64,000 bases of DNA from Rhizobium sp. L1K21 (GTDB taxonomy: Bacteria; Pseudomonadota; Alphaproteobacteria; Rhizobiales; Rhizobiaceae). The position numbers and the translations under genes are program-made. The notes beneath the pieces are model-generated. The model had not been told where the DNA came from. It ran no database searches and worked only from the letters and a program-made list of their open reading frames with translations. How positions within the stretch are numbered: the stretch's first letter is position 1; the number at the start of each line of letters is the position of its first letter. Shown piece by piece: positions 26,845 to 47,920 of this stretch. The stretch lies in the NCBI RefSeq assembly GCF_024055895.1, contig NZ_JAMXLE010000003.1, forward strand, positions 62,001-126,000, read 5' to 3'.

Positions 26845-27594
26845 CTAATTATGGCTTGCAATGAAGCTCCGGGCGCGCTCGGTATCGGGTGATGTGAAAA
26901 ATTTCTCCGGAGAGCCTTCTTCCACGATTTTGCCTGCATCCATGTAAACGATGCGATTTGCGCACTTGCGCGCGAAATTGGTTTCATGCGTCACGATGAT
27001 TGATGTCAGCCCTTCCGATGTCAGGTCCTGGATGATGGCGAGGACCTCTCCCACCGTTTCCGGATCGAGCGCCGAGGTCGGCTCGTCGAACAGCATGACT
27101 TCGGGACTCATCATCATCGATCGTACGATTGCGACTCTTTGCTGCTGGCCGCCCGACAACTGGCTTGGGAAGGAGCGCTCCTTGCCGCGAAGCTTGACCC
27201 GTTCGAGAAGTGCCAATGCACGCTCCTCGGCCGCCGCCTTTTTCATCAAGCCCTCCCGAACGGGTGCGAAAGTCAGGTTGTTCAGAACAGTCATATGTGG
27301 GAAGAGCGCAAAATCCTGGAAAACCATACCAATCCGGCGGCGCAGTGGCCGCCAATCCCTTTCGGCGAGCGCCTCGATATCTCGTCCGTGAAACTGGATG
27401 TGTCCGCCTTGGGTGCTTTCCAGGCCGTTGAGGCAGCGAATAAACGTACTCTTCCCGGATCCAGAAGATCCCATGATGACGACCCGTTCACCCTCTGTAA
27501 TGGAAAAATCCACGCCGAACAGAACTTGATGGATCCCATAATATTTTTCCAGACCAATGGTGCGGATAACGGCCGTGTCCAGGTTTTGTGTCAT
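26845..27594 (-). CDS. Amino-acid ABC transporter ATP-binding protein (GlnQ/HisP-like)
   Basis: 249 aa. Walker [11 protein letters not shown]-loop [11 protein letters not shown], signature LSGGQQQRV, Walker [16 protein letters not shown]-loop VTHETNFA. The PAAT-family pattern predicts polar amino acids or amino-acid-like compounds. ATG 27594 has GAGGG 7 nt upstream. Last gene of the four-gene importer; the IS3 remnant begins right after its stop. Confidence 0.91.
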
Positions 27595-27621
27595 TTTGAA
27601 ACCCTCTGTTTTGTTTTTGGA

Positions 27622-28296
27622 CTACCTTTTGGAGGAGCGCCCCAAGTGACGCTCGAGCCCACGGATTCCCGCATTCATCAACAGGCCGGCAATAAAATAG
27701 ACGACAAGGATGAACCCATAGACGGTAAGGCCCGGGGAACCGCCCTGGTAATAGGACGCTCGGTCGATGACGATCTGTCCGCTTTTCAGCAGCTCGACAA
27801 CGCCCACCAATGCCCCGAGGGAGGTCGAATGCATCAGGATATTACACAGGCCCGCATAGGCGGGAATAACGGGTCGAAGCGCTTGCGGAAGTATAATCGC
27901 CACAAATATCGAGAAGGATCCGAGCCCCAGTGAACGGGCGCTCTCGAACTGGTGTCGAGGCACTGCATTGATTCCGCCCCGAACGATTTCCGCCCCGTTC
28001 GCCCCGCCCCAAAGGGACAAACAGAGAATGGTGGCCTGAAGCGGTCCCAGTTGAAGCCCGAATGCCGGAGCGCCAAAGAAGATAAAGAACAAAAGAACAA
28101 CCTGCGGGATATCGCGAAAGACCTCTATGACAATGCGGACAGGCATGCGGATCAGCTTTAGACGCACGGTCGCCAGAGAGCCGAATGCAAGAGAGAGAGC
28201 CATAGCAGCCATGGTGCTGGCCACGAAAATCACCACTGCGTAGCCGGCAGCGCGCAGAAAGAAGTCCCGGTTTTCCAGGATGAGGTCGAAATTCAT
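27622..28296 (-). CDS. Amino-acid ABC transporter permease (HisM/GlnP-like)
   Basis: 224 aa with about five membrane helices and the PAAT EAA loop FESARSLGLGSFSIFVAIILPQALR. IEVFRDIPQVVLLFFIFFGAP is the family N-terminal signature. Overlaps the upstream permease by 4 nt. Confidence 0.9.
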   Translation of the reverse strand: MNFDLILENRDFFLRAAGYAVVIFVASTMAAMALSLAFGSLATVRLKLIRMPVRIVIEVFRDIPQVVLLFFIFFGAPAFGLQLGPLQATILCLSLWGGANGAEIVRGGINAVPRHQFESARSLGLGSFSIFVAIILPQALRPVIPAYAGLCNILMHSTSLGALVGVVELLKSGQIVIDRASYYQGGSPGLTVYGFILVVYFIAGLLMNAGIRGLERHLGRSSKR

Positions 28297-28964
28297 CGGC
28301 GATATCCTCTGCCCAGATGCCTTTCCAGCAGCGTGACGATTGCGGAAAGCCCCATGACTATCGTGAGGTAACAGATCAGCAGCGCCAGGAAATTCTCCAT
28401 GGAACGATAGCTCTCCGCAATGTTATCCATCGCGACATAGGTCAGTTCCATCACGCCGATCGAGCTTAACAACGCCGAGTTCTTGGTCGCCGATATGATC
28501 GTATTCATCATGGCTGGAACCACTGTCCGCGTCGCAACAGGCGCGATGACAAAAACGAAAAGGCCGCCAGGGCGCAGGCCGAGCGAACGTCCGGCCTCCG
28601 TCAGTCGCGGCGGAAGACCTTCTATCGCACCACGGATATTTTCGGTTTGATACGCTGTGGCCCATACCGTCAGCACGATTATGCCTGAGATGAGCGGCGA
28701 TGCCGCCACGCCGATTTCCGGCAGACCGAAATAGAAGAAGAAAAGCTGCACCAGCATCGGTGTGTTGCGGATCAAACTGACATAAGCTCTGATAAGCTGG
28801 CAAAGGACAGGCGTGCGGAAATACAGGATGGTCGCCAGGACATAGGCGACAGCAATGGAGATCCCGTTACAGACCAGACACAAAACCAGCGTCAGTTCCA
28901 GCCCCCTCAGAAACAGGGGCGCAACTGACCAAAAATAGTTCCAGTCGATGGCGATACCTGTCAT
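28293..28964 (-). CDS. Amino-acid ABC transporter permease (HisQ/GlnP-like)
   Basis: 223 aa. YVSLIRNTPMLVQLFFFYFGLP near residue 65 and EAA loop LTEAGRSLGLRPGGLFVFVIAP. Forms a heterodimeric channel with the next permease. The 111-nt gap to the binding-protein gene holds no recognised element. Confidence 0.9.
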   Translation of the reverse strand: MTGIAIDWNYFWSVAPLFLRGLELTLVLCLVCNGISIAVAYVLATILYFRTPVLCQLIRAYVSLIRNTPMLVQLFFFYFGLPEIGVAASPLISGIIVLTVWATAYQTENIRGAIEGLPPRLTEAGRSLGLRPGGLFVFVIAPVATRTVVPAMMNTIISATKNSALLSSIGVMELTYVAMDNIAESYRSMENFLALLICYLTIVMGLSAIVTLLERHLGRGYRR

Positions 28965-29075
28965 GACGCGTCGGCCAGAAATTTTGAAGGAGTTTTCGAC
29001 AACATCGCTGCTCTCTCAAAGTGGACAGCCCAGGCAAGGGCCGTCCATAGGATAGGGAAGGACCGGGACGAGATC

Positions 29076-29936
29076 CTACGGTGAGGGAAGAACCGTGTTC
29101 TGGTCGGTGCTGCCATCCGGCGGGGACTGTGTGTAGCTGGCGATCCGTTCGTCGAGTTCAATCGCCTGCGCGTATTTCTTCACCGCAGCAACGTAGGTTC
29201 CATCAGTCTTCGCCTTTTCCACCATGGCGCTTATGAATTGGCGCATGGGGGTATCGCCGCGGCGCACCGCGGGCGCTGACCAGCCGATCTGGAACTGGAC
29301 ATCGGCCACCTGAAGTCTCGGGTCCTTGCTGGCCGCGACGACGAGACTGTGATGATCCTGGGCGACGCCGTCACCGCGTCCCTGACGCAACGACTGAATG
29401 GCATCCGTCACATTGTCGTACTTCACCAGCTTGATATCCGGATATTCCTTTTCGAGGTACGTCGATTGCCAGCTTCCCTTGTTCGTCAGAAGGGTCTTGC
29501 CCTTCAGCTCATCAAGGTTCGTGACATTTTCGCCCTGCCTGACAAGGATGCCGGACGAGCCCCAGTTCGTGGATGTTGCGAAGTCGACCGTCTCTTTGCG
29601 CTCTTCGGTGACACCCATCGTCGCAAAAAGCACGTCGACCTTGCCGGAAACGAGCATCTGTACGCGGGTTGCGGCGGTAACGCAGGTGAAGACGGCCTTG
29701 TTTGCGTCCGAAAACACGTAGTTTGCCATATAGCGCCCGACATCCACATCAATGCCGGTGACATCCCCGCTCTGATCCAGAAAGCCAGACGGAGGGCTGT
29801 CGCACTTGACGCCGATCCTCAGCTCACCTTTTTCCTTCAGTTCCTTTGGAACGGTCACGTCCTGTCCGTGCGCCGCCGCGGCAAGCACAAGCACGGAAAA
29901 GGCGGTGATCAACCTGAATGTCGTTCTCTGTTTCAT
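29076..29936 (-). CDS. Amino-acid ABC transporter substrate-binding protein (family 3)
   Basis: 286 aa with a signal peptide (LITAFSVLVLAAAAHG, cleavage near residue 24). SBP_bac_3 signatures: GELRIGVKCDSPPSGFLDQSGDVTGIDVDVGRYMA pattern near residue 35 and KGKTLLTNKGSWQSTYLEKEY in the middle. Binds an amino acid or derivative in the periplasm. First gene of the importer, downstream of the lyase operon on the same strand, so the ligand is probably the substrate of that pathway. Confidence 0.88.
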   Translation of the reverse strand: MKQRTTFRLITAFSVLVLAAAAHGQDVTVPKELKEKGELRIGVKCDSPPSGFLDQSGDVTGIDVDVGRYMANYVFSDANKAVFTCVTAATRVQMLVSGKVDVLFATMGVTEERKETVDFATSTNWGSSGILVRQGENVTNLDELKGKTLLTNKGSWQSTYLEKEYPDIKLVKYDNVTDAIQSLRQGRGDGVAQDHHSLVVAASKDPRLQVADVQFQIGWSAPAVRRGDTPMRQFISAMVEKAKTDGTYVAAVKKYAQAIELDERIASYTQSPPDGSTDQNTVLPSP

Positions 29937-30088
29937 TGTCTATGTTCCCCTTGTTGGAAATGACGCTTTGAAATTCACCTTGTTCTCGATTGGGGGCATT
30001 TCCCCAAATCCGTGCTTCCTCCCAGCGCCTGCGGGTTCTTCCGACCCATCAAGCCGACTCAGGACAAGCCTAAGTTTCGCTCCTCATG

Positions 30089-30133
30089 AAGCCCGGCAGT
30101 ACACGGACGGGTCCTTTGATCTCTGCCGGGCTT
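30089..30133. terminator. Long stem-loop between lyase operon and importer
   Basis: AAGCCCGGCAG (30089-30099) and CTGCCGGGCTT (30123-30133), 11-bp perfect stem with an inner GGAC/GTCC mini-stem. A T-rich tail (TTGTTGCTTTTT) follows on the plus strand; the minus strand has none. It lies 30 nt after the lyase stop and may partially separate the two minus-strand units or terminate antisense transcription. Confidence 0.5.
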
Positions 30134-30162
30134 TGTTGCTTTTTCCGAGGAGCGCCCGGAGC

Positions 30163-31659
30163 TTATTTTCCGGAGATTTTATTGACCACCGCCGTGAGCA
30201 TTTCACTGGCCTTGGCAAGCTGTCCGCGGCGATCGGACAACCATTTGAGATCTGCCTCGAGTTCGATTTTCGCTTCGTCGATTGCGGCTTTGACGGATTC
30301 TGGAGCGGGCATCCCCTTGCCGGCACGGCGGGCGACATTCTTGACAGGATCCAATGCATCAATGATATCTTGCGGGCTCACATCAATCGGCGCGCCAGTC
30401 TGAGCGACGGCCGCTTCCTGAACGAGATCGATTTCAATCAAATTGGCTTTGATGCCCCGCTCTATAGCCGTGATGACGACGCGGGCAACGATTTCATGGG
30501 CTTCGCGATAATCTATACCGACACGGCGCACCAACATGTCGGTGAGATCGGTCATCGTGGCATAGTTTTCCGCTGCATATTTCAGCATCTGCGCCTTGTT
30601 TGGATGCAGGGTACGCACGACGCCGGTCATTGCATGGGTGGCGGCAATCATTGCATCGATAGAGCGCGGCTCCAGTTCGACGCGGGCGGCACTATATTGA
30701 TATTCGATCGCATTCAGCGAAGTCAGAATCGCAACAAGCGGCCCCATCGCGGCAAACGCTGCTTTACGGCTGCGTTCGAGAGAGTCCGGGTTCTTCTTCT
30801 GCGGCATGATGCTGCTGGTGCCGGCAAAGGACGCATCCAGCTCAGCCGTCTGATATTCATCCGAACTCCAAAGCTGGATTTCCGATGCCAGCCGGCTCAC
30901 GCCGCTGAGAAAGATCGCATTGTCGGAAGCAAATTCGGCAACGTGATCCCAACCTGCCACGCCTTCAATACTATTGACGACAAGACCGTCAAAACCCAAG
31001 AGAGCGGCTGTCCGATCGCGGTCGAGCGGCCATCCAGTGCCAGCCGTGGCGGCAGCGCCAAGCGGGCATTGATTAATCCGCGGGTATAATTCGCGGTACC
31101 GATCGAGGTTCTTTCCAAGATTTTCGCAGATCGCCATAAGATAGTGGCCAAGCGTGATCGGCTGGGCTTCCTTACGCTGGGTGTAGACGACCATGACTGT
31201 GTCAAGATGATCGGCGGCCTTATCGATAACGGCCTCGCGAAGTCCGATCACCGCTTCGATGGTGCGTAACAGCTGATCACGCAGAAACATTCGTTTCCCG
31301 GCATTGGCGAGGTCGTTTCGGCTGCGCCCGATATGCATCTTGCCGGCAACCGGCCCGATCTCACGCTTTAGCGCGGCTTCATAGGGCAGATAGGTGCGCA
31401 GCGAAGGATCGTCCTGTGCCGAAAGATCGACAGCAGCCAGCCCTTGCAGAATCGCAGCCGCTTCCTCGGGCTTTAGAATGTTCTGCTCCGCCAGCATGCT
31501 GACATGTGCTCTGTGAATCTGGCTATCATAGGGAAATACAGCGCTGGTCAGCGTGAGAGCTGCGGCATCGAAGTCGTAGAGCTCCTGAAACTCCGGGGCC
31601 TTTGCTCCGCTGGCACGCCCGATACGGGTCGCGTCGGGTTGAGACGGGGTGGTGCTCAT
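30163..31659 (-). CDS. Argininosuccinate-lyase-like C-N lyase, diverged
   Basis: 498 aa, fumarase/aspartase superfamily, argininosuccinate-lyase branch: HIGRSRND, AGTGWPLDRDR and the mobile Ser loop SSIMPQKKNPD (Ser near 282-283) are present. In ArgH the segment around residue 160 reads T-H-x-Q-x-A-Q-P with an essential His; here it is YTQRKEAQP, Gln at 161. This and the operon argue against arginine synthesis. Relatives such as EDDS lyase cleave N-substituted aspartates to fumarate and an amine, which would suit a catabolic operon with amine oxidase, aldehyde dehydrogenase and amino-acid importer. ATG 31659 follows AGGAGCAGAAT; the longer frame overlaps the GNAT gene. Confidence 0.78.
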   Translation of the reverse strand: MSTTPSQPDATRIGRASGAKAPEFQELYDFDAAALTLTSAVFPYDSQIHRAHVSMLAEQNILKPEEAAAILQGLAAVDLSAQDDPSLRTYLPYEAALKREIGPVAGKMHIGRSRNDLANAGKRMFLRDQLLRTIEAVIGLREAVIDKAADHLDTVMVVYTQRKEAQPITLGHYLMAICENLGKNLDRYRELYPRINQCPLGAAATAGTGWPLDRDRTAALLGFDGLVVNSIEGVAGWDHVAEFASDNAIFLSGVSRLASEIQLWSSDEYQTAELDASFAGTSSIMPQKKNPDSLERSRKAAFAAMGPLVAILTSLNAIEYQYSAARVELEPRSIDAMIAATHAMTGVVRTLHPNKAQMLKYAAENYATMTDLTDMLVRRVGIDYREAHEIVARVVITAIERGIKANLIEIDLVQEAAVAQTGAPIDVSPQDIIDALDPVKNVARRAGKGMPAPESVKAAIDEAKIELEADLKWLSDRRGQLAKASEMLTAVVNKISGK

Positions 31660-31669
31660 ATTCTGCTCC

Positions 31670-32167
31670 TTATTCACTGGAGGTTTTGAAATTGTTGTGG
31701 GATTCATCGCAGCGCCGTTCCAGCGTCGAAGCGTAGGGAACAAAACCCATCCTGCTCCAGAATGCCTGACCGCCCGGATTGCTTTGCATAACCTCCAGGA
31801 CGACCCGGATATTTGCGGGGAAACGGTCTGATACGAGTGTGTCGAAGGCCTTACGCCCGACTCCTCCTCCGCGCATATCCCGGCTGATGTAGAATTGCCG
31901 TAAATAGACGCTTTCACCGCTCTTTTCGGTTATATCGTGCTGCTCGCGCCAAGTCGCAAATCCCGCAGTTCGACCGTCAATGTCCAGCAGATCAATGTGC
32001 CACTCTCCACTCTCCATGAAGCCGCGCGCACGTTCTTCCAGCTGCGACAAGGTCATCGGATTGCGGTGCCCTTCGTCAATGATCAGTTCCCGGTTCATTG
32101 CCGCGATCTCTGGTAAGTCGGCAACGGTGGCAGGACGAATGTCCAGCTTGTGAAAGGTATCGGTCAT
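31670..32167 (-). CDS. GNAT family acetyltransferase
   Basis: 165 aa single GNAT domain. Acetyl-CoA loop RGGGVGRKAF (Q/R-x-x-G-x-G), motif B NPGGQAFWSRMGFVPY. It closely resembles the C-terminal domain of the GntR fusion at 35153 (MNREL...DEGHRNPM, RQF, NPGG.FW.R.GF.PY are shared), so the two are paralogues. ATG overlaps the aldehyde dehydrogenase stop (ATGA). It probably acetylates an amine or amino group in the pathway. Confidence 0.87.
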   Translation of the reverse strand: MTDTFHKLDIRPATVADLPEIAAMNRELIIDEGHRNPMTLSQLEERARGFMESGEWHIDLLDIDGRTAGFATWREQHDITEKSGESVYLRQFYISRDMRGGGVGRKAFDTLVSDRFPANIRVVLEVMQSNPGGQAFWSRMGFVPYASTLERRCDESHNNFKTSSE

Positions 32168-33675
32168 GCAGTTTTCCCCAGTGCGATCCAGGTTGTCTTC
32201 AGGTCGGAATATTTGTCGAAAGCGTGCAGGGACAAATCCCGCCCGTTGCCGGACTGCTTGACCCCTCCGAAAGGTGTGCGGACATCGACGTGGTCGACCG
32301 CATTGACGCTTATGCTGCCCGCATGCAGCGCCCGTGACATCCGGATCGCGCGGTCCAGATCCTGGGTCCAGACTGACGCACCCAACCCATAAATTGAAGC
32401 ATTGGCGATGGATACGACTTCGGCTTCGCTCTCGAAGGGAATGACGCAGAGTACCGGCCCGAAGATTTCCTCGCTTGCAATCACTGAGTCTGGAGCAGCC
32501 CCCAGGAAAATGGTTGGAGTGATGAAGCAGCCGCCGGTGTCGAGCAAAATGCGGTTTCCGCCCGCCACGAGTTCCGCTTCTTGGCGGCCCTTTGCTATGT
32601 AGGACAGCACGCGCTCTGTGTGTTCTTCGCTGATCATTGCACCCATGCCGGAATCGCTATGCATCGGGTCGCCGGGTTCGTAAGCCTGCGTGGCCTGAAG
32701 CAACAGGGGCAGGAAATCCTTCAGAATGTTCTTGTGAACAAACAACCGGGACGTTGCCGAACAAACCTCGCCCTGATTGAAGAAGACGCCAGCTGCTGCA
32801 GCCTTGGCCGCCGCCTCAAGGTCGCGAACATCCGGAAAGACGATGCAGGCGCTTTTCCCCCCGCACTCCAGCCAAATCCGCTTCATGTTCGATTGCGAGG
32901 CATACCCTAGAAACCGCTTTCCGATTTCAGTCGAGCCGGTGAAGCCAACACAATCAATCCCCGAATGTAAGCCAATTGGCCCACCCACATCAGGTCCGAA
33001 GCCGGGAAGCACGTTGAACACACCCTCCGGCATACCCGCCTCGGCCGCAAGAGAAGCAAGGCGCAGGGCGGTTAGCGGCGACTGCTCAGCCGGTTTCAAA
33101 ATCACGCTATTGCCTGCAGCAAGAGCCGGAGCACACTTCCATGAAGCCATTTTCAAAGGGAAGTTCCAGGGCACAACCGCGCCGACCACGCCAACCGGCT
33201 CCCGCGTGATTGTAGCAAGCGCTCCAGGCCCGACAGGAACCGTCTCATCGACAAGCTTGTCACAAGCCTCGCCGAAGAAGCGAAAAACCGAAGCCGCTCC
33301 GGGAATATCGAGCGTTGATGAATCGCGGATAAGCTTACCTGTATCCATAGTCTCGAGAACGGCCAGTTCATCGGAAGCCTGTTCAATAAGATCTGCCAAC
33401 CGCACCAGAACACGCCGCCGGAACTCCGGATCGCAACGAGACCAGTGCCCGGCGTCAAAAGCACGACGGGAAGCCCTGACCGCGAGGTCCACATCATCCG
33501 CATCGCAGGACGCGACCTTGGCAATGATCTTGCCGGTCGCCGGGTTGATGCAGTCAAAGCGCCCGTCATTGACCGGCGCGACAAACCTACCATCGATAAA
33601 CGCACGGCATTCTATATTGCCGATCGTTTCGGCGCCCGGTTGGGGCTGGCTTTCGCTTCGGATAAGGTCAGTCAT
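32164..33675 (-). CDS. NAD(P)-dependent aldehyde dehydrogenase (PuuC/BetB-like)
   Basis: 503 aa, normal length. VPWNFPL cofactor segment, FTGSTEIGK, catalytic Glu in LECGGKS and nucleophile Cys in FNQGEVCSATSR are intact. Oxidises an aldehyde, likely the product of the amine oxidase encoded 31 nt upstream. ATG 33675 has AGAGGA upstream; the longer open frame overlaps the oxidase and is not used. Confidence 0.9.
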   Translation of the reverse strand: MTDLIRSESQPQPGAETIGNIECRAFIDGRFVAPVNDGRFDCINPATGKIIAKVASCDADDVDLAVRASRRAFDAGHWSRCDPEFRRRVLVRLADLIEQASDELAVLETMDTGKLIRDSSTLDIPGAASVFRFFGEACDKLVDETVPVGPGALATITREPVGVVGAVVPWNFPLKMASWKCAPALAAGNSVILKPAEQSPLTALRLASLAAEAGMPEGVFNVLPGFGPDVGGPIGLHSGIDCVGFTGSTEIGKRFLGYASQSNMKRIWLECGGKSACIVFPDVRDLEAAAKAAAAGVFFNQGEVCSATSRLFVHKNILKDFLPLLLQATQAYEPGDPMHSDSGMGAMISEEHTERVLSYIAKGRQEAELVAGGNRILLDTGGCFITPTIFLGAAPDSVIASEEIFGPVLCVIPFESEAEVVSIANASIYGLGASVWTQDLDRAIRMSRALHAGSISVNAVDHVDVRTPFGGVKQSGNGRDLSLHAFDKYSDLKTTWIALGKTA

Positions 33676-33706
33676 ATCCTCTTTATCCTTTTCGATCCTG
33701 TTGAGG

Positions 33707-35017
33707 TCATAACCCGGCTCGTTTGCGATCAAGCCAATCGGCAAAGCTGAAATATCCGGCTGCAAACGGCACATACCAAGGTGTGCCGCCGATATTGGGC
33801 AAGACGCCGAAAGAGATGCGTTCGAACACGCTTGGTTGCGTGAGATTCCCGAGCATCCGTTCTATCGTCAGTCGCCCAAGCCAGGGCATGATAGCGATGC
33901 CACTGCCGTTGCATCCAACCGCAAACCAGACACCCTCACGCTGCCCGATATGCTGGATATGACGGCGTGTCATGGCGATCGTTCCCGTCCATGCGTGGCT
34001 GATACGGACGTTTTCGAGTGCGGGAAAAACACGCGACAGGAAGCGATGCAGATATCCTGCAGCCATTTCGGGCGTGTTCGGGAAAAGACCGGGGCGAGCA
34101 CCGAATAGAATTCGCTTGTTGTCCGGCGAGGGCCGGAAAAACCAGAGATTGCGCTTGGTGTCTGAATACATGCGCACTTTGGGCATGAGAGCGGCAACGC
34201 GATCATTTCCCAGTTCCTCCGTTGCAATCATGTAAGAACCAACAGGGGCGATCCGCCGTCTGAGGCTTGTCAGCGCCGCATCAGTGTAGCCGTTTGTCGC
34301 GAAGAGCACGTGGCGAGCCTTGATGCTTCCCTTGCTGGTCTTCACCACGTGGTCTGCGCCGCTTCTCGCTATGCCTTCCACCCTTACATGCGAGCGCAGA
34401 ATACCACCGCGACCTTCAACATCCCGCGCGAGGGATTGGACAAGCATGGCCGGGTTCAATCCGCCAAATTCTTCGACCAGAAGTCCACCGTGATAGAGGT
34501 CACTGTCGATTTCGCACCGCAACTCCTCGCGGGAGACAGTCCGGGCCGTCACGCCGGCGGCGTCGCTCAAAATGCGCGCATGACTTGCGAACTGCTCAAG
34601 ATCCCGCGGCAAGGCTGCGAGGAAAAGTCGCCCCGTTTCGCGAAAAGAAGCGCTGATTCCGCCCGTTGTCGTCAATGTGCGAACATATTCAAACGCGTCA
34701 GCATGGGCTTGCGAAAGTTCGGTGACCGCATCTGAGCCCAAGGCGCGCGCCGCACCGCTTATCAAGAGCTTCTGCCCGCTGGAAACCATGGCACCGCTGC
34801 GTGAACTGGCCCCGCCACCGATTGCGCCGGCATCCAGAACCAAAGGACACGCGCCCAATTCGATAGCCCGGCGCGCGGCACTCAGGCCGCAGATGCCAGC
34901 CCCTACGATCACCAGATCTGCCTCATGAGGTAGATCCTCATCGGTCGAAAATGGTCGAGCATTCTCCCACCAGTAGGGCTCGCTCTTGAAGTCATTTGTA
35001 AAAATATCGCCGGACAT
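33707..35017 (-). CDS. FAD-dependent amine oxidoreductase (DAO family, PuuB-like)
   Basis: 436 aa. N-terminal dinucleotide motif DLVIVGAGICGLSAARRAIELG (about residues 36-57), GGASSRSGAM, and the C-terminal FAD segment FAVGCNGSGIAIMPWLG, as in gamma-glutamylputrescine oxidase and glycine/sarcosine oxidases. Converts an amine to an aldehyde plus ammonia or a second amine. ATG 35017 has GAGGG 6 nt upstream; upstream in-frame codons run into the operator region. First gene of the minus-strand operon, divergent from the GntR-GNAT regulator. Confidence 0.87.
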   Translation of the reverse strand: MSGDIFTNDFKSEPYWWENARPFSTDEDLPHEADLVIVGAGICGLSAARRAIELGACPLVLDAGAIGGGASSRSGAMVSSGQKLLISGAARALGSDAVTELSQAHADAFEYVRTLTTTGGISASFRETGRLFLAALPRDLEQFASHARILSDAAGVTARTVSREELRCEIDSDLYHGGLLVEEFGGLNPAMLVQSLARDVEGRGGILRSHVRVEGIARSGADHVVKTSKGSIKARHVLFATNGYTDAALTSLRRRIAPVGSYMIATEELGNDRVAALMPKVRMYSDTKRNLWFFRPSPDNKRILFGARPGLFPNTPEMAAGYLHRFLSRVFPALENVRISHAWTGTIAMTRRHIQHIGQREGVWFAVGCNGSGIAIMPWLGRLTIERMLGNLTQPSVFERISFGVLPNIGGTPWYVPFAAGYFSFADWLDRKRAGL

Positions 35018-35066
35018 TCGAACCCTCAACGGAAGCATGCCACCAACCATGAGAGGCCAAATAAAA

Positions 35067-35096
35067 ATTGTCAACAAAAAAATTATTGTCAACAAA
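35067..35096. promoter_or_regulatory. Two tandem TTGTCAACAA boxes (candidate GntR operators)
   Basis: ATTGTCAACAAA occurs at 35067-35078 and again at 35085-35096. Each contains TTGT-CA-ACAA, a perfect dyad matching the TNGTnnnACNA-type sites bound by FCD regulators. The 18-bp spacing would place the two sites on nearly the same DNA face. They lie between the divergent oxidase and regulator genes. Confidence 0.65.
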
Positions 35097-35152: not shown

Positions 35153-36349
35153 ATGAGTGCAGATTCCTCAATCAGTTCGTCGCGAGCCAAACGCCGTCCG
35201 CTAGCCGAAATAGTGGTCGAACAGATTTCCAGCATCATTTTGAATGGAGAATTGCGCCCTGGCGACAAGCTCAATGAAGCGGAAATAGCGGAACGTCTGA
35301 AGGTCAGTCGCGGCCCTGTTCGCGAAGCCACGCGCCAGCTCAAGGAAGCTGGCTTGCTTGAGACTCATGCCTATCGCGGGGCGTTCGTGCGGAAACTGGA
35401 CCAGCGCGAGATCTCCGACATATATGCTTTACGGGAAATTTTGGAATGCACTGCCGCTCTGGCTGCGGTTCGCCTTGCTTCGCCAGACGATTTCGGAGCA
35501 ATTGAGAACGCATTGCGCGATACTGAAACGGCTGCCCTCTCGAATGCGCGCGCCAGAATGATCGAGGCGGACGTGGCATTTCACACAGCGCTGTGCCACG
35601 CCGGCCATAATGGCCGCATCACCGAGACATTCAGCAAGCTGGCGACGGAGTTGCGGCTTGTTCATCTGATGATGAGTCCAAATCCCGACCAGCTTAAAGC
35701 CGCTGCCCTCGATCATCGCACGATCATGGAAGCATTGCGAAACAGAACGCCCGACAGGCTGATCGCCGCCCTGCGCAGCCACATAACCGGGGAGCGTGAT
35801 TTGGTTCTCCAATATCTGGGACCTCACGGTGATACAGCAAACACCGCCTCCCCTGCTGCATCAATCTCGCAGGAAATGCCCCTGGCATCGCGTTTCATTG
35901 GCAAAGTGAGCGTTCGCAAACACACCTCTGAAGATTTCCCGCTTCTCGCCCGCATGAATCGCGAACTGGCAGACGACGAAGGTCATCGCAATCCGATGAA
36001 TGTCTCGGAAATGGAAGAACGTTTCCGCAAGTTTGTGGGTCACGAGGGATGGAGCGTCGACCTCTTCCTGCTCGACGACGAAATTGTAGGATATGCCACG
36101 CATAAACGGGAGACGGACCCGTCCAACCCACGAAGGCAGCGTATCTTTTTGCGGCAGTTTTTTATCGTCCGTCATTATCGTCGCGACGGCATGGGCCAGG
36201 CCGCGTTTAATGCGCTGGCTTCTGCCCGTTTCAAAGCCGGAGACCATCTCATGCTCGAGGCAATCGAAAACAATCCGGGCGGTCGCGTATTCTGGCAGCG
36301 TCTCGGCTTTACGCCTTATAGCGCCATCCTTGAATATACCATTCCCTGA
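35153..36349 (+). CDS. GntR/FCD regulator fused to a GNAT acetyltransferase domain
   Basis: 398 aa. Residues 15-80: GntR winged helix (LNEAEIAERLKVSRGPVREA). Residues 85-222: FCD ligand domain with metal-type residues Asp140, His144, His188 and His210. Linker 224-248 is Ala/Pro-rich. Residues 250-398: complete GNAT domain with RRDGMG (343-348) as the acetyl-CoA loop, similar to the free GNAT at 31670. No frameshift or internal stop supports a two-gene artefact. Fusion suggests that the regulator senses or modifies the pathway compound, or is controlled by acetyl-CoA. Likely binds the TTGTCAACAA pair. Confidence 0.88.
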   Translation: MSADSSISSSRAKRRPLAEIVVEQISSIILNGELRPGDKLNEAEIAERLKVSRGPVREATRQLKEAGLLETHAYRGAFVRKLDQREISDIYALREILECTAALAAVRLASPDDFGAIENALRDTETAALSNARARMIEADVAFHTALCHAGHNGRITETFSKLATELRLVHLMMSPNPDQLKAAALDHRTIMEALRNRTPDRLIAALRSHITGERDLVLQYLGPHGDTANTASPAASISQEMPLASRFIGKVSVRKHTSEDFPLLARMNRELADDEGHRNPMNVSEMEERFRKFVGHEGWSVDLFLLDDEIVGYATHKRETDPSNPRRQRIFLRQFFIVRHYRRDGMGQAAFNALASARFKAGDHLMLEAIENNPGGRVFWQRLGFTPYSAILEYTIP

Positions 36350-36653: not shown

Positions 36654-36875
36654 ATCGATCAGCAGATCGATGCTGAAGTCTTTTCCGATGACCCGAACCA
36701 AGGTCTCACGACCGACCGGCTCGCTCGACGCAGAGGTCACCGCATCCACCCTGAGCATCCATTCCCGCCAGCGCAGTGCCGGCGGCAGGTCTTCCAGCTC
36801 CCGATCAAACAGACGTTCGTCTGCTGCGTTCGCTTTCCGGCGGGCTTTGGCTGTGCTTGATCCCGTCATCGTCAC
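36654..36875 (-). pseudogene. scpB N-terminal fragment (plasmid-type ScpB)
   Basis: About 74 codons matching the start of the ScpB-like chromosome-segregation protein found on rhizobial plasmids (ERLFDRELEDLPPALRWREW, then SSEPVGRETLVRV and SIDLLID). After SIDLLID the frame continues into unrelated sequence, so some two thirds of the protein are lost. It begins right after the DUF1403 stop, the usual gene order for this pair. Confidence 0.65.
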
Positions 36876-37833
36876 AACCCGCAGATCCGCAAGGAGGGGC
36901 AGCCCGACAGTTCGCGCACGGCACCAAAGCCTTCCAACCGTTCAAACAGTTTCGTCGCGGCCCAAAGGGAGAGATAGCTGCCGGGCACCGTCGCCGGCAA
37001 TGCATCCTCTTCCAACAGCCTGCGTATAACGGCGTCGGCACGCTTTGATCGAACCTTCGGCGTTACGGCCAGAAGCGTGTCCGCGCGCCGGGCAATTTCA
37101 TTCGCCGAGCGTAAGGTCATTCCCGCGCCTTCCACCAGCGCCAGATAGACCGTGCGCGGAAAGCCGGCCTCGCCGGGACGCACGCGCCCCTTGGCCCCGA
37201 GTGTGCGGAAGGCAGGACCGGAACGCTTGGCCATCGGCAGCACAGGCCCGGTCCCATTTCAGCAGGACCGCGATCAGCATGTCGGAGAGCGCCCTGGCGA
37301 GTGGTTCGGCATTCGGACGGACGACAAGGATCGCAGTCACAAGGTCCGCCACTGCGAAGGGTGCCGCCCGTCCGGACTGGACGACAGATTCGACCAGATC
37401 GGGGATGGAGGCAAGGCCAACGTCCCAGGCCAATCCCAAAAGATCGACCAACGCAGCGACCGCCTTCGAGGAGAAACCCGGTTTCCGATCCGTGATCCTT
37501 TTGGAGGCCAGAAACACGATTCCCCGCCGGCCCCGGATCGTCGCCGGAGGCCGTGAACGAAAGCGCATCACGCGACGCGTGTTTGTCCTCATTGCGGCCC
37601 ATCAACCGCACGACCGCCGCGGCGCATTTCAGCGCCTGACGCTGCCGCCAGCAGCCCGCCCATCCGGGTTCGGGATGCACAAGATCATCCAGTGATTTCA
37701 GAGCGATATCCGCATCACATTCCGCATCCGTCTCTGCCAGATGACGCCCGCGCGGAATGGACCAAGCCGGTAACAGCGCCGGTGGCCTGTATCCCGGGAA
37801 GATGGTGGGAGAAGGCGAATCATGCCCGCGAGA
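36872..37833 (-). pseudogene. DUF1403 family gene, two frameshifts
   Basis: Minus-strand remnant in three frames. From 37833: PPALLPAWSIPRGRHLAETD and HPEPGWAGCWRQRQALKCA; near 37530 it moves to a frame reading VAALVDLLGLAWDVGLASIP and FAVADLVTAILVVRPNAEPL; near 37240 it moves again to [20 protein letters not shown] and [16 protein letters not shown], ending at 36872. The original start codon was not found. The pieces are in order, so this is decay by small indels rather than rearrangement. Confidence 0.7.
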
Positions 37834-38276
37834 CTACATGATACGAGCAGTTTTGACAGTCTACTCGCATCTAACCGCACAGACCGTAGTAATGGCATAA
37901 TGCCCGATAAGATTGCATTATCGTTCATATTGTACATTATAAAGAAAACCCACGCTCAGAGGCCGCAAATCCCCGAAAATGACATCGATCTGCACGCTGC
38001 GCCGTCTCTCAGCGCGGTGCGATGAGCATTCAGAGCTTTCGGCGTGCCCACACATGAAGGTAAGCCACATCTGGAATGGGTTCTGATACGCCAAGCCGGC
38101 CACAGCGGCCTTTAGCCGGTTTATCAAAACATTCCCGCTTTAAGAGACGGTAAACGGCGCTTGAAAATTGCGCATACGTCCGGCCGCTTTTGCGCGTCCA
38201 TTGTCGCCGGCACCACTGCAAACGGAACCTGCCGGTCGGTCTTCGGCCAACCTGTCCTCCTGTCGCATTATTGCTC
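37834..38276. other. Intergenic region before the GntR/UTRA operon
   Basis: About 440 nt with no supported gene. AT-rich between 37880 and 37960. Short open frames on both strands have no recognisable content. Confidence 0.5.
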
Positions 38277-38335
38277 TTGACAGCATGTCGGAAATGCTTC
38301 GACTATGTGAACAGGTCTGAACAGGTATATCAGAC
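38277..38335 (+). promoter_or_regulatory. Promoter and dyad of the yegUVW-like operon
   Basis: TTGACA at 38277-38282 and GACTAT at 38301-38306 (18-nt spacing) form a plausible sigma70 promoter. Around the expected start site lie TGAACAGGT twice in tandem (38308-38316, 38318-38326) and GTCTGA/TCAGAC (38315-38320, 38330-38335), a 6-bp dyad with a 9-nt spacer. Likely the operator of the GntR regulator encoded next. Confidence 0.45.
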
Positions 38336-38354
38336 ACGATTGATCAAGGACCTT

Positions 38355-39077
38355 ATGTCGATGAAAGCCAAGCTGGACCCCGGAGCACCAAAACCGCAAC
38401 AGATCGCAAGTGTTCTGGAGCAGGAAATCCGCTCGGGCGTTCTCGGTTTCGGGGACAGGTTGCAAAGCGAGAGCGAGCTTGTGCGCCGCTTTTCGGTGAG
38501 CCGGAATACGCTGCGCAAAGGCCTTGAGGAGCTCAACAGCCGCGGACTGATCACCACCAAGGTGGGTATCGGCTCCTTCGTCACCTTCAATGGCAAGACG
38601 ATTGAGGATGTCTCCGGCTGGTCGAAGGCGCTGGCTGAAGTCGGGGCGAAAACGCAAACCACCATCCTGCGGATCGAGGTTCTGCAGGACGCAGATCTTG
38701 CCGAACAGCTGAAAATCGACAATCCCTTTTTCATTGCCGTCGATCGCCTTCGCAGCCTCACGCCGGATCAGACGCCGATTTCGTTGGAGCGCAGCCGCCT
38801 GCCCCTTCTGCCCGAGCTGGAAAGCGTGCCATTGCGCGGCCTCAAGGCGGGCTCCTTGCACGAAACGCTGCGCGAGGCGGGTCTCATTACAACACATGGC
38901 GAGGAATGGGCCGGCGTGGAGATGCTGAGCGCGGAAGACGCCGACCTTTTGAAGCGCGCGCCGGGGCTGGCGTTTTTGAGAACAAGCCGACTGGCGCGCT
39001 GCGCCGATGGTCGGCCCATTGAATATGTCGTCAGCCTTCTCGACCCATCGCATTTTGCATTGCATCTGGAGTTTTAA
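38355..39077 (+). CDS. GntR/HutC family regulator with UTRA domain (YegW-like)
   Basis: 240 aa. Winged helix at residues 8-75 (LQSESELVRRFSVSRNTLRKGLEELNSRG split), then a UTRA ligand domain ending in ADGRPIEYVVSLLDPSHFALHLEF, typical of HutC-type proteins. ATG 38355 has AAGGA 5 nt upstream; the longer frame overlaps the promoter. First gene of the operon with ADP-ribosylglycohydrolase and PfkB kinase; E. coli YegW occupies the same place next to yegU-yegV. Expected to bind the local dyad and respond to a nucleoside or sugar derivative. Confidence 0.85.
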   Translation: MSMKAKLDPGAPKPQQIASVLEQEIRSGVLGFGDRLQSESELVRRFSVSRNTLRKGLEELNSRGLITTKVGIGSFVTFNGKTIEDVSGWSKALAEVGAKTQTTILRIEVLQDADLAEQLKIDNPFFIAVDRLRSLTPDQTPISLERSRLPLLPELESVPLRGLKAGSLHETLREAGLITTHGEEWAGVEMLSAEDADLLKRAPGLAFLRTSRLARCADGRPIEYVVSLLDPSHFALHLEF

Positions 39078-39079
39078 GC

Positions 39080-40114
39080 TTGGAAACGTCCAAAGACACC
39101 ATCATCGATCATGCTCTGGCCGCTTTGGCCGGTGGCGCGCTGGGCGATGCCCTTGGAATGCCCACGCAGCTTCTCTCGCCGAAACAGATTGCGGAAAGCT
39201 ACGGCAATGTTGATGATTTTGTCGCCCCTACTGAAGACCATCCGGTGTCCAAGGGCCTGCCGCCCGGTGCCATTACCGATGACACCGAGCAGACCCTGTT
39301 GTTGGGTTCCGTGCTCCTCGACTCCTCGGGTGGCTTTGACCACGCCCTGTGGATCAAGGCGCTGGTGGATTGGGAAGAAGACATCCGTGCGCGTGGCGGT
39401 TACGACCTTCTCGGCCCTTCCACCAAACGCGCCATAGACGCCATCAATCGCGGCGTCGCGCCAGGCGAGGCCGGGCGATACGGCGACACCAATGGCGCAG
39501 CCATGCGCGTTGCACCGGTCGGCATCATGTTGCCACCAACGCAGGAACTGATCGCAATGGTCGCTGAAACCTGCCGCTCAACCCACAATACGACGATAGC
39601 CATTTCGGCGGCAGTTGCGGTTGCCACAATGGTCAGTTGCGGTGTTGCCGGCATGAAATGGCGTGATGCCATCCCGGTTGCGCTCGACGCCTGCCGAACG
39701 GCGGAAAGCGAAGGAAGCTGGGTTGCCGGCGGGCGCGTTTCCGCCCGCATCGCCTGGGCCCTGTCGCTTGCCGAAAAGGCCACCAGCAGCGCAGAACGCC
39801 GCGCGCTTTTTGATCTGGTCGGAACCAGCGTCGCCTCGCAAGAGTCCGTTCCAGCCGCCTTTGCCGTTCTCGCGCTCGCTGATGGCAATTGCTGGCAGGC
39901 CGCAGTCATCGCGGCCAATCTCGGCGGTGATACCGATACGATCGGGGCGATTGCCTGCTCCATGGCCGGCGCTTGTGGCGGATATGAAAGCTTGCCTGCA
40001 GACAAGATTGGCAAACTGGTTGGTTTTGATCTCAACAAGGCAAAAAATCTGGCGACAGCGCTGGCCGATCGGCGCCTGTCCCACATGAGGGCGCATGAGG
40101 TTCGCGATGGCTGA
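39080..40114 (+). CDS. ADP-ribosylglycohydrolase family protein (YegU-like)
   Basis: 344 aa all-helical hydrolase. Metal-site motifs in order: GALGDALGMP (residue 18 on), TDDTEQT, GDTNGAAMRVAP, STHNTTIA and the C-terminal GGDTDTIGAIA. Cleaves N- or O-glycosidic bonds of ADP-ribose or related ribosides in the cytosol. The start is TTG 39080, 2 nt after the regulator stop with GGAG 8 nt upstream. In this operon a free nucleoside-type substrate is likelier than an ADP-ribosylated protein. Confidence 0.87.
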   Translation: METSKDTIIDHALAALAGGALGDALGMPTQLLSPKQIAESYGNVDDFVAPTEDHPVSKGLPPGAITDDTEQTLLLGSVLLDSSGGFDHALWIKALVDWEEDIRARGGYDLLGPSTKRAIDAINRGVAPGEAGRYGDTNGAAMRVAPVGIMLPPTQELIAMVAETCRSTHNTTIAISAAVAVATMVSCGVAGMKWRDAIPVALDACRTAESEGSWVAGGRVSARIAWALSLAEKATSSAERRALFDLVGTSVASQESVPAAFAVLALADGNCWQAAVIAANLGGDTDTIGAIACSMAGACGGYESLPADKIGKLVGFDLNKAKNLATALADRRLSHMRAHEVRDG

Positions 40115-41087
40115 GCCGCGGCTTTTCCATATCGGCAGCGCCGTGATCGACTATATTTACCAGTTGGAGCGCCTGCCCAATCCCGGTGACGATCTGCTCG
40201 CTTCCGATTTCGCGGTATCGCCAGGCGGCGGCTTCAATATGTTGCTCGCGGCAAAGCGCAGCGGAATGGAAAGTTGCTACGCTGGCAAGATCGGCAATGG
40301 CCCGGCTGGCGCTTTGCTGGAAGCCGCCTTGCGGGCCGAAGGCATCAAGAGCCTGAATAACAAGGCGGCTGATATCGACACGGGAACATGCATCGTTCTG
40401 ATCACCAGCGATGGTGAACGCACCTTTATCTCCCGCCAGGGTGCCGAAGCGCAGATGACGATGGCAGAGCTGAATGCCGTTCCCGCAGCTGCGGGTGATT
40501 GGGTCTTTACCTCCGGTTATACGCTCGCCTATCCCGAATGCCGCCAGGCCCTGGCGCGTTTCATCGAAAGCTTGCCCAAGGACCGCTCTTTTGTGCTCGA
40601 TCCGACGGGTGCTGTCGCCGCGATTCCCGCCGACATTCTGGCTCGTGTGCTCAAACGCGCCGACTGGCTGACCTGCAATGAAGCCGAAGGCCAACAGATA
40701 GCGGGCGAGATGGAGGGGCAGGCGCTCAGCCAAGCGCTTCTGGAGCGCTTCTGTCCCAATGCAAAGGGTGTGGTCGTGCGCTGCGGCGGCAAAGGGGCCT
40801 TTCTGGCGCTGCGCGGCCAGGCTCCCCTCTTCCTGCCTGCCTTCAAGGTCGAAACAATCGACACCAATGGGGCGGGCGATGTCCATGCAGGGGCCTTTAT
40901 CGCCGCGCTTGCCCGCGGCGAAAGCCCTCAGAACGCTTTAAGGCGGGCCAATGCGGCCGCAGCCATGTCGACCACGCGCAAAGGCGGAGCCAGCGCGCCA
41001 ACACGTCAAGAAGTCGAGGCATTCCTGAACCGTGCCCAGGAAGCCGAAATCGACCGTCGAGACAAGGGAACAGGCACTGAAAACTGA
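40107..41087 (+). CDS. PfkB family carbohydrate/nucleoside kinase (YegV-like)
   Basis: 326 aa ribokinase fold. PGGGFNMLLAAKRSG near residue 38 is the substrate loop, and DTNGAGDVHAGAFIAAL (catalytic Asp in GAGD) the PfkB signature 2. ATG 40107 overlaps the glycohydrolase stop by 8 nt and has GAGG upstream. Probably phosphorylates the ribose or riboside released or handled by the glycohydrolase, pulling it into central metabolism. Confidence 0.88.
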   Translation: MAEPRLFHIGSAVIDYIYQLERLPNPGDDLLASDFAVSPGGGFNMLLAAKRSGMESCYAGKIGNGPAGALLEAALRAEGIKSLNNKAADIDTGTCIVLITSDGERTFISRQGAEAQMTMAELNAVPAAAGDWVFTSGYTLAYPECRQALARFIESLPKDRSFVLDPTGAVAAIPADILARVLKRADWLTCNEAEGQQIAGEMEGQALSQALLERFCPNAKGVVVRCGGKGAFLALRGQAPLFLPAFKVETIDTNGAGDVHAGAFIAALARGESPQNALRRANAAAAMSTTRKGGASAPTRQEVEAFLNRAQEAEIDRRDKGTGTEN

Positions 41088-41099
41088 GAGGACACGACA

Positions 41100-42152
41100 A
41101 TGAAAACCTATTCGCTTCTGGTGGCCGCGGCCTCCGTGACGCTTTTGATGCAGAGTTCGGCACTGGCCGGTGATGTTCATGTGTTGAACTGGAAAGGTTA
41201 TGGCACCGATGAAAGCTGGGCCGTTGAAGCCTTCGAAAAGGCCACCGGCCACAAGGTCATCAACGACTATTTCAATTCCGAACAGGAAATGCTCACCAAA
41301 CTTCGGACCAATCCGGGCCTCTATGATGTCGTGATGATCAATGCGGCCTTCAACGATCAGGCAACCGCCGAAGGTCTCATTCAGCCCATCGACGTCTCGA
41401 AGATCCCCAATGCCGCCGATATCGGGGAAGAAAAAGCCGCCTCCCCCATGCTCAACCACGATGGCAAAGTTTATGGCGTGCCGTGGGTCTGGGGCCTGAC
41501 ATCGATCGCTGTGAACGATAAATCCTTTGACGAGACCCCGACCTCCATTCAGGTCATGTGGGATGAAGCCCACAAAGGCCGTGTCACGCTGCGCGATGAC
41601 GCCTTGGAAGCCATCCAGTTCGGCGCCATCGCGTCCGGCCAGAACATCAACGACATCAAGGATATGGACGCGGTCAAGGCAAAACTGACCTCGCTCATCC
41701 CGCAGATCAAGACCTTCTGGGGTTCGGAAAACGACTGGAACCAGATGGTGGCAGCAAATCAGATCGATGTCGGCACCTATTGGAGCGGTTCGGCGTCGCG
41801 CGCGAAGAAAAACTTCAATCTGCCGGTCACGTTCGTGGTGCCGGAAGAGGGTGCCGTCGGCTGGCTGGATGCGCTGTCCATCCCCAAGGATTCAAAGAAT
41901 GTTGAGGGGGCTGAAGCCTTTATAAACTACATGATCGATCCGGCTTTTTATACCGAATGGGACGAAAAGGTTGGTGCGCCGGTCTCTGCAAACCTCAAGG
42001 CGGTCGCAGCGCTTCCCGAAGACGCCTTCAACCGCAAGGTCATGGGCGATCCGAAGGTTGCAGAACGTATCCAGTTCCAGGCACCCGTTTCCGATGCCGA
42101 TCGCGAAGCCTACCTGAAAATCTGGCAGGAACTGAAGGTCAACGTTCAGTAA
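41100..42152 (+). CDS. ABC transporter substrate-binding protein (PotD-like)
   Basis: 350 aa with signal peptide (cleaved near SALAGDV). PotD/PotF-type fold: VHVLNWKGYGTDESWAVEAFEKATGHKV and YGVPWVWGLTSIAVNDKSF. Family ligands are polyamines, but members of catabolic operons bind other compounds. Leader GAGAGGA before ATG 41100. Directly downstream of the glycohydrolase-kinase pair, so its ligand is likely a cationic or nucleoside-like substrate of those enzymes. Confidence 0.87.
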   Translation: MKTYSLLVAAASVTLLMQSSALAGDVHVLNWKGYGTDESWAVEAFEKATGHKVINDYFNSEQEMLTKLRTNPGLYDVVMINAAFNDQATAEGLIQPIDVSKIPNAADIGEEKAASPMLNHDGKVYGVPWVWGLTSIAVNDKSFDETPTSIQVMWDEAHKGRVTLRDDALEAIQFGAIASGQNINDIKDMDAVKAKLTSLIPQIKTFWGSENDWNQMVAANQIDVGTYWSGSASRAKKNFNLPVTFVVPEEGAVGWLDALSIPKDSKNVEGAEAFINYMIDPAFYTEWDEKVGAPVSANLKAVAALPEDAFNRKVMGDPKVAERIQFQAPVSDADREAYLKIWQELKVNVQ

Positions 42153-42173
42153 ATCGGCCTCTGAGGGAGGAGC

Positions 42174-43052
42174 ATGGATATGAGTGGACAATCCGTCAGC
42201 ATGGGCCGCCGTTCCCCGGCGAAAGCCGCGGCCCCCTTGCTCCTTCCCGCCTATCTCTGGCTGATCGTGGCAATATTCCTGCCACTGTCAGCCATGGTTT
42301 TCTTCTCCTTTGCCAGCGATATGCCCTTTAGTGGCAAGCCCTGGTCGCTGACGCTTTCCAATTACGCGGAATTCTTTTCCTCCAGCGTCTATGCAACCCT
42401 GCTTTTATCCTCCTTTCGCCTCGCGCTGGAGGTCACGCTTTGGTGCGTTCTGCTCGGCTTTCCAGCGGCCTATGTTCTGGCCAAGGTCTTCAAGGGCAGA
42501 ACCCGCGAGGCCGTTTTTCTGCTCGTCATCCTGCCCTTCTGGAGCAACGGTCTGGTGCGGATCTTCTCCTGGGCCATGGTGTTGCGCAGCGGCGGCATCC
42601 TGGATACCGCGCTCAATGCCGTCCTGCCTTTCAAGATCAATATCGACCTCATGTACTCCTATCCGGCGGTGATTATCGGCCTGGTTCACTCCTATGTGCC
42701 CTATATCGTGCTCACCTGCTATCTCAGCCTGCAGGCCATTGATGACAGCATCATCGAAGCGGCCCGTTCGCTTGGCGCTTCACGGCTGACCATCCTGAAA
42801 CGGCTGATCATTCCGTTGGCCCTGCCCGGCATTCTGGCGGGCTCCGTGCTGGTTTTCGTGCCGGTCATCGGTTCGTTCATGGAGCCGCGCATTCTGGGCG
42901 GCCGCACCGGCACATTCTACGGAACCGTGATCGAGGATCAGTTTGTCGCTGTCTTCAACTGGCCGCTCGGCGCTGCACTATCATTCATTCTACTGGCCGT
43001 GGTGCTTATCATTCTGGCCGCAGCATCCCCGATCATGAGGAGAGCCACATGA
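42174..43052 (+). CDS. ABC transporter permease (PotB-like)
   Basis: 292 aa with about six helices; EAA loop IIEAARSLGASRLTILKRLIIP. GGAGG before ATG 42174. Overlaps the next permease by 4 nt. Confidence 0.9.
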   Translation: MDMSGQSVSMGRRSPAKAAAPLLLPAYLWLIVAIFLPLSAMVFFSFASDMPFSGKPWSLTLSNYAEFFSSSVYATLLLSSFRLALEVTLWCVLLGFPAAYVLAKVFKGRTREAVFLLVILPFWSNGLVRIFSWAMVLRSGGILDTALNAVLPFKINIDLMYSYPAVIIGLVHSYVPYIVLTCYLSLQAIDDSIIEAARSLGASRLTILKRLIIPLALPGILAGSVLVFVPVIGSFMEPRILGGRTGTFYGTVIEDQFVAVFNWPLGAALSFILLAVVLIILAAASPIMRRAT

Positions 43053-45324: not shown

Positions 45325-45361
45325 CCTTGCAAATATGGAATTATACTCCATAATTGCAAGG
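45325..45361. promoter_or_regulatory. 37-bp near-perfect palindrome at the AAA ATPase start
   Basis: Arms CCTTGCAAATATGGA (45325-45339) and TCCATAATTGCAAGG (45347-45361) are complementary at 14 of 15 positions around ATTATAC. The right arm ends at the base before ATG 45362. A DNA-binding site that silences the ATPase, or a hairpin hiding its ribosome site (AAGG), both fit. Confidence 0.65.
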
Positions 45362-47859: not shown

Positions 47860-47920
47860 TTTCTTCACCTTTCAAAAAGGCAAAAGAAACCTACCCGCCA
47901 AAAAAGACGGCCAAAGACTC

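Follow-up and report, generated by a model that had tools for sequence, protein, structure and literature searches.

A GntR-FCD regulator fused to an acetyltransferase domain, divergent from a probable EDDS operon in Rhizobium sp. L1K21

Why should a regulator carry, within its own polypeptide, a copy of an enzyme of the operon that it faces, and which pathway would that operon serve? The question is raised by a gene in a 64,000-nucleotide stretch of Rhizobium sp. L1K21 DNA (the window, from whose first base all positions are counted). The initial annotation, made from the letters alone, read it as a 398 amino acid (AA) fusion of a DNA-binding domain, a metal-type FCD ligand domain and an acetyltransferase (GNAT) domain, and the open frame, Pfam profiles and an alignment with PmiR confirm its coordinates, length and domains.

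The fusion protein and its relatives

The gene and the parts of its product are as follows.

35153..36349, + strand: GntR-FCD-GNAT fusion regulator, 398 AAs (open frame; Pfam domains; six full-length relatives)
35204..35389, + strand: GntR winged-helix DNA-binding domain, residues 18-79 (Pfam PF00392, 58.4 bits, cut-off 27)
35417..35788, + strand: FCD ligand domain, residues 89-212, with D140, H144, H188 and H210 (Pfam PF07729, 83.3 bits, cut-off 24.3; alignment with PmiR 7xp0; six model helices)
35822..35887, + strand: variable linker, residues 224-245 (pLDDT below 50; 24% mean identity among fusions over residues 226-248)
35900..36334, + strand: GNAT domain, residues 250-394, with the loop RRDGMG (Pfam; match to the free GNAT; model pLDDT 91.9)

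The frame is unbroken from ATG to stop. A stop or frameshift between the FCD and GNAT parts, which had been named beforehand as refuting the fusion, is found in none of the seven fusions now known, and the occurrence of the same unbroken fusion in six other genomes excludes a frameshift or a sequencing or assembly artefact. Winged helix and FCD domain, in that order, both score above their Pfam cut-offs, and Acetyltransf_1 matches residues 293-386 (31.0 bits, cut-off 20.7). The predicted metal set, D140, H144, H188 and H210, aligns with the D/H/H/H of PmiR; its first three members are kept in all seven fusions and H210 in six. The sole exception is the Paraburkholderia sartisoli fusion (L017:9221-10462), in which the fourth His is replaced by Leu. 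In the structural model, whose overall pLDDT is 72.8, the FCD part is predicted to form six helices, as in VanR-type regulators (residues 84-108, 111-130, 133-150, 154-174, 178-196 and 200-222).

The fusion has the same winged helix, six-helix FCD domain and D/H/H/H set as GntR proteins of the VanR/FadR type with FCD (PmiR, TM0439, DhdR), but none of the 23 PDB sequences that match it at E ≤ 0.001 covers the GNAT part. Among NCBIfam models the regulator half scores best with TIGR03338 phnR_burk, a regulator from an aminoethylphosphonate-type cluster, both in the window protein and in the three other fusions scanned (146.8, 136.1, 144.5 and 145.5 bits); these scores fall far short of the cut-off (271.5), and the model, 212 positions long, stops before the GNAT part. 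MocR, PutA and BirA are regulators that sense through an enzyme fold. MocR, GabR and EnuR, in which GntR is joined to an aminotransferase, resemble the fusion in pairing a DNA-binding domain with an enzyme fold as the sensor of a pathway amine, and differ from it in having another enzyme fold, PLP chemistry and no FCD domain. The NCBIfam MocR models match only the winged helix of the fusion, and no aminotransferase, and so no fold-type I domain of the MocR/GabR kind, is among its Pfam matches. It resembles MocR, PutA and BirA in working principle and belongs to none of them by domain. In Pseudomonas aeruginosa the PA3458 regulator of the NAGGN operon is also divergent from an operon that holds a GNAT, but PA3458 is of the MarR type and the GNAT there is a separate protein (PMC8070244). 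Titles and abstract openings in the literature on the regulator and its domains, mostly outside the subscription journals, contain no description of a GntR-FCD-GNAT protein.

A single scan of genome contigs with the two GNATs of the window, which accepted only sequences containing one of two GNAT peptides exactly and so misses fusions with other GNATs, gave 39 loci. The six best (62-74% identical to the fused GNAT) all encode full fusions of 396-432 AAs, with the following full-length identities to the window protein.

L013, Rhizobium sp. CG5: 70%
L014, Chelatococcus asaccharovorans DSM 6462: 67%
L015, Paraburkholderia phosphatilytica: 60%
L016, Caballeronia pedi: 59%
L017, Paraburkholderia sartisoli: 58%
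L018, Chelativorans multitrophicus DSM 9103: 67%

Each of the six, like the window fusion, has genes for a free GNAT, a DAO oxidase and a lyase in its neighbourhood. The remaining 33 loci have open frames of 48-275 AAs (three of them cut by contig ends), which are too short for this architecture. We note that these free-standing GNAT loci (L019-L051) carry a DEGHRNPM-type motif and come mostly from Opitutia, Verrucomicrobia and Planctomycetes.

A widespread architecture is unsupported by the genomes sampled. The fusion was found only in its own genome among 397 of the order (full-length search at 1e-60), among six of the genus and among 398 of the phylum, and the 27 plasmid and 3 phage records that match it include none covering more than 80% of the query. 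The GNAT profile has matches in 2 of 385 genomes of the class, the second being a 165-AA frame with no fusion. The EDDS lyase described below was likewise found only in its own genome, among 394 genomes of the family and 398 of the phylum. EDDS operons that lack the fusion may exist, the scan having been seeded with the GNATs and not with the lyase.

The divergent operon and its probable pathway

The fusion gene is divergent from an operon (26845-35095, − strand) with the following order of genes.

33707..35095, − strand: DAO-type FAD oxidoreductase (Pfam PF01266)
32164..33774, − strand: aldehyde dehydrogenase, start uncertain (Pfam PF00171; best NCBIfam match PuuC, below its cut-off)
31670..32167, − strand: free GNAT, paralogue of the fused domain (Pfam; pairwise match to the fused domain)
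30163..31659, − strand: EDDS lyase homologue (start inferred from alignment, 31917 in the ORF caller; 871.7 bits to the 6g3d/6g3h chain)
29076..29936, − strand: ABC transporter solute-binding protein, family 3 (Pfam PF00497)
27622..28964, − strand: two ABC permease genes, 27622-28296 and 28293-28964 (Pfam PF00528)
26845..27594, − strand: ABC transporter ATPase gene (named from its sequence and 63-73% matches to ATPases of four related loci)

The L018 homologue of the oxidase begins at residue 27 of the window frame, which suggests a true start near 35017.

The identity of the lyase allows the pathway, left unnamed by the initial annotation, to be named. Over 488 AAs the window lyase is about 83% identical to that of PDB 6g3d-6g3i, the Chelativorans EDDS lyase. 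The lyase of L018 has no mismatch to the 6g3d/6g3h chain over 502 AAs, and the L018 fusion adjoins the crystallised enzyme's own gene. The lyases of the six relatives are 70-84% identical to the window's, the Chelativorans copy about 83-84%. Seven checked residues (R112, N113, Q159, S280, N288, D290 and Y320) are identical in all seven lyases, but six of them (Q159 is H) are also present in the other argH-type lyase of this genome and therefore do not discriminate; the argument rests on overall identity, 83% as against 37% for that second lyase. Automatic annotation would read the operon's lyase as argH, since it scores 348.1 bits with the NCBIfam argH model (cut-off 279.5). An ordinary arginine operon is ruled out by the presence of the second lyase elsewhere in the genome and by the 83-84% identity of the operon's lyase to EDDS lyase.

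By its sequence, then, the lyase of the operon is an EDDS lyase, for which EDDS cleavage is predicted, and the pathway is most likely the breakdown of (S,S)-ethylenediamine-disuccinate (EDDS), a natural zinc-binding chelator. Structure 6G3H is described as EDDS lyase with bound EDDS (PMC12363623), the reaction is reversible and gives ethylenediamine plus two fumarates (PMC9486952), and strain DSM 9103 is reported to use EDDS, which occurs naturally (PMC7312458). The crystallographic and biocatalytic papers examined concern the enzyme, and none of them names a regulator for it; GntR, regulator and acetyltransferase are absent from the main text of PMC7312458.

From the genes present we infer a route in which the free GNAT probably acetylates ethylenediamine or aminoethyl-aspartate, after which oxidation by the DAO enzyme and dehydrogenation by the aldehyde dehydrogenase would lead to N-acetylglycine without a reactive amino-aldehyde. 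The putrescine (Puu) route is a parallel to this EDDS route, in which acetyl would be the blocking group. The oxidase has weak NCBIfam matches to pipecolate oxidase (150.1 bits, cut-off 600) and aminophosphonate oxidoreductase (86.0 bits, cut-off 632.8); the latter, together with the phnR_burk match of the regulator, suggests that the operon may share ancestry with an aminoethylphosphonate module.

All seven loci, which span Alpha- and Betaproteobacteria, combine the fused GNAT with a free GNAT, an EDDS lyase and a DAO oxidase, and this co-occurrence supports the earlier proposal that the regulator contains a copy of an enzyme belonging to the adjoining pathway. All seven also have an aldehyde dehydrogenase, but in the three beta loci its identity to that of the window is only about 29%. 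Transporters of the polar amino-acid type are present in the window, L014, L015, L016 and L017, and a peptide-type transporter in L013, L018 and L016 (Pfam SBP_bac_5 tested for L018). Gene order is unlike between the alpha and beta loci, so the association of fusion and pathway survives rearrangement. No deacetylase gene is in the core shared by the seven loci.

Sequence and constraint of the two GNAT domains

The free and fused GNATs are 44% identical over 144 AAs with no gaps and carry the same conserved motif, which bears out the claim that the same GNAT type is encoded separately at 31670. A search of the 4.34-Mb genome with the fusion gives 15 matching places at E ≤ 0.001, among which only the fusion itself and the free GNAT cover the GNAT part. 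We note a partial match to the free GNAT (46% over 78 AAs) on a Rhizobium rhizogenes K84 plasmid (H28, CP000631.1 96633-96866). The predicted GNAT fold of the fused domain, modelled at the pLDDT listed above, has 667 PDB matches at E ≤ 0.001, and these are mixed, including SSAT and DpA but also phosphinothricin, aminoglycoside and ribosomal-protein acetyltransferases. The 64 solved matches of the GNAT profile are equally mixed, with the diamine acetyltransferases lower down beside the same three other kinds; the nearest is the thialysine (aminoethyl-cysteine) acetyltransferase 12jc (E 1.1e-10), and its relative 2fe7 is also present. The thialysine/diamine enzymes (SSAT2, SSAT1, DpA) thus have the GNAT fold in common with the fused domain and are its nearest solved relatives by profile, and appear among its fold matches.

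The active sites differ. The acidic pair in strand 4 and the Tyr in helix 4 of the SSAT/thialysine enzymes are absent from free and fused GNATs alike, which have Arg-Gln and Trp where the thialysine enzyme has Glu-Asp and Tyr (LRQ and FW stand for the LED and FY of 12jc). In SSAT we take E92 and Y140 to be the catalytic residues. With these replacements the substrate of neither GNAT is assured; an Arg in place of Glu would suit a substrate that bears a carboxylate, and thialysine is an aminoethyl amino acid like aminoethyl-aspartate, an analogy that fits the latter as a substrate without proving it.

The acetyl-CoA loop of the window fusion, RRDGMG, fits [RQ]xxGx[GA], and RxxGxG is kept in all seven free enzymes and six of the seven fusions. 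The exception is the L018 fusion (L018:9269-10456), the one beside the characterised EDDS lyase, in which RRDNFG replaces RxxGxG and the R of LRQF is K; this copy may bind acetyl-CoA weakly or no longer at all. Loss of the acetyl-CoA residues in all homologues, the other finding that was to speak against the fusion, is thus not what is observed, the loop being retained in six fusions and changed in this one. The DEGHRN region of the fused GNATs is invariant, and MNRELADDEGHRN is identical in all seven fusions. Ten columns are fixed in the seven fusions and never shared with the free enzymes; they include A27, D28, V93, H95 and N127 (domain numbering), which adjoin the DEGHRN segment, the acetyl-CoA loop and the NPGG turn.

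In a tree of 25 rows, of which the seven loci supply 14 and a set of 34 other GNATs the remaining 11 (alignment A4 takes in 26 of the 33 other GNAT loci), the fused GNATs of all seven loci group as a single clade (support 100/99), separate from their free counterparts, which indicates one fusion event; on this tree either the free or the fused GNAT could be the older form. Across the 21 pairs the fused GNATs average 70% identity and the free ones 56%, with the fused value higher in every pair; the corresponding means for the other parts of the fusion are 75% (GntR), 66% (FCD) and 24% (linker). The nonsynonymous rate (dN) is also lower for the fused than the free GNAT in 21 of 21 pairs, though many dS values are saturated or undefined and the pairs, drawn from seven sequences, are not independent. 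In the close pair L015/L016 dN is 0.067 (fused) and 0.158 (free), with similar dS (1.13 and 1.01). That the fused GNATs form one clade and are the more conserved in every pair argues that the fused domain is functional. A decaying tail is ruled out, the fused GNAT being the more conserved copy, and slower evolution than that of the enzyme of origin would be hard to reconcile with a redundant tail.

Putative operator, mode of action and surrounding replicon

The near-palindrome TGTCAACA is found upstream of the fusion gene in all seven loci. In the divergent region of the window the word TTGTCAACAA occurs twice, and it occurs once each in L013, L014 and L018; the beta loci have TGTCAACA plus a second TGTNNACA word 24-25 bp away.

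35068..35077, no strand assigned: putative operator TTGTCAACAA, copy 1 (enriched upstream of the fusion in seven of seven loci)
35086..35095, no strand assigned: putative operator TTGTCAACAA, copy 2, 18 bp from copy 1 (same word enrichment)

Counted on both strands, TGTCAACA occurs 10 times in the seven upstream regions, 8 times in the divergent region between free GNAT and DAO genes of three beta loci and 7 times in the other 181 kb, and a reversed control word 0, 0 and 3 times. In 2000 mononucleotide shuffles the mean was 0.06 and none reached 18; the regions were drawn with the word already in view, so this enrichment is somewhat overstated, and the site in all seven loci is still solid. 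The whole genome contains 11 copies of TTGTCAACAA (3 of the reversed control), so the word is not private to the promoter of the fusion gene. The nine sites elsewhere might mark a wider regulon or other GntR proteins.

We lean, by a little more than an even chance, towards the view that the fusion is the local regulator of an operon for (S,S)-EDDS or a close relative, and that it detects an amine intermediate with a sensor derived from an acetyltransferase of the same pathway. Its GntR domain would bind the TGTCAACA near-palindromes of the divergent promoter, most likely as a repressor. A polycarboxylate inducer, either EDDS or the N-(2-aminoethyl)aspartate left by the first lyase step, probably binds at the metal site of the FCD domain. 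The fused GNAT would have arisen once from a copy of the pathway acetyltransferase and would have kept that enzyme's type of ligand, an amine (aminoethyl-aspartate or ethylenediamine) that it probably binds along with acetyl-CoA. In this way the fused GNAT would report to the DNA-binding domain the unacetylated amine, that is, the flux not cleared by the free enzyme. The analysis names a probable regulator, a putative operator and a probable full gene set for the breakdown of EDDS. The system would be a conserved and testable one-component regulator whose sensor was recruited by duplication of an enzyme of the neighbouring operon, with the ancestral-type enzyme adjoining as a control.

A bolder form of this view, which we hold only tentatively, makes the fusion a working pathway enzyme that acetylates the amine released by the lyase. 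Its occupied or turned-over state, with amine and acetyl-CoA, would then set operator binding while the free paralogue clears the bulk, and the switch would gauge both the lag of acetylation behind supply and the acetyl-CoA at hand. It is also possible, but rather doubtful, that an active GNAT acetylates the amine intermediate beside the FCD pocket, so that the regulator resets itself or makes an acetylated inducer. Sensing through catalysis and inactivation of the inducer were the two mechanisms put forward in the initial annotation. Activity is favoured by the loop kept in six of seven fusions, the invariant DEGHRN region, the strong purifying selection on the fused GNAT and its good model (pLDDT 91.9); the changed loop of the Chelativorans copy speaks against it, as do the ten fusion-fixed columns, several of which lie beside the active site by sequence and suggest a changed function, and little bulk turnover would be expected from a single regulator dimer at each operator. 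If the fused domain does still catalyse, it would give a direct view of catalysis as part of signal reading.

MocR-type GntR regulators, whose aminotransferase domain only binds ligand, are a model for a pseudoenzyme sensor, in which the GNAT would bind its ligand and catalysis would be irrelevant or lost. The residues fixed in the fusions (A27, D28, V93, H95 and N127), the altered L018 loop and the constant presence of a separate free enzyme are all in keeping with such a sensor. A pure amine sensor would have no need of RxxGxG, which six of seven fusions keep, unless acetyl-CoA were itself the ligand, and we regard this explanation too as rather unlikely.

A plain fusion for co-expression, with the FCD domain doing all the sensing and the tail adding acetyltransferase activity from the start of induction, is improbable: fused and free domains are indeed paralogues with the same conserved motif, but a spare would not be expected to evolve more slowly in 21 of 21 pairs or to have fixed residues of its own. 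Autoacetylation, by which the GNAT would modify a lysine of its own DNA-binding domain and tie operator binding to acetyl-CoA, finds a candidate in K39 of the winged helix, invariant in all seven fusions, but is very improbable, since a basic residue at that position is common in GntR proteins and the fusion has its amine-binding region in common with a free enzyme encoded in the cluster, a sign that the substrate is small.

The 444-kb contig is a repABC replicon, and the operon lies about 11 kb from the repABC genes, which makes lateral spread on plasmids likely. In the window repC (46552-47868), repB (48021-49040) and repA (49037-50296) occupy 46552-50296 on the − strand, with Pfam matches to RP-C, RepB/ParB_N and AAA_31, and an AAA_14/DUF4143 ATPase gene (45335-46531, +) is convergent with repC. 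Just downstream of the fusion gene, DUF1403 is present in two overlapping frames (36872-37592, −; profile positions 194-312 and 87-191) and is probably a broken gene. Beyond it (38190-44895, +) are genes for a GntR-UTRA regulator, an ADP-ribosylglycohydrolase and a PfkB kinase, followed by a solute-binding protein and ABC transporter genes, which by their sequences look polyamine-type.
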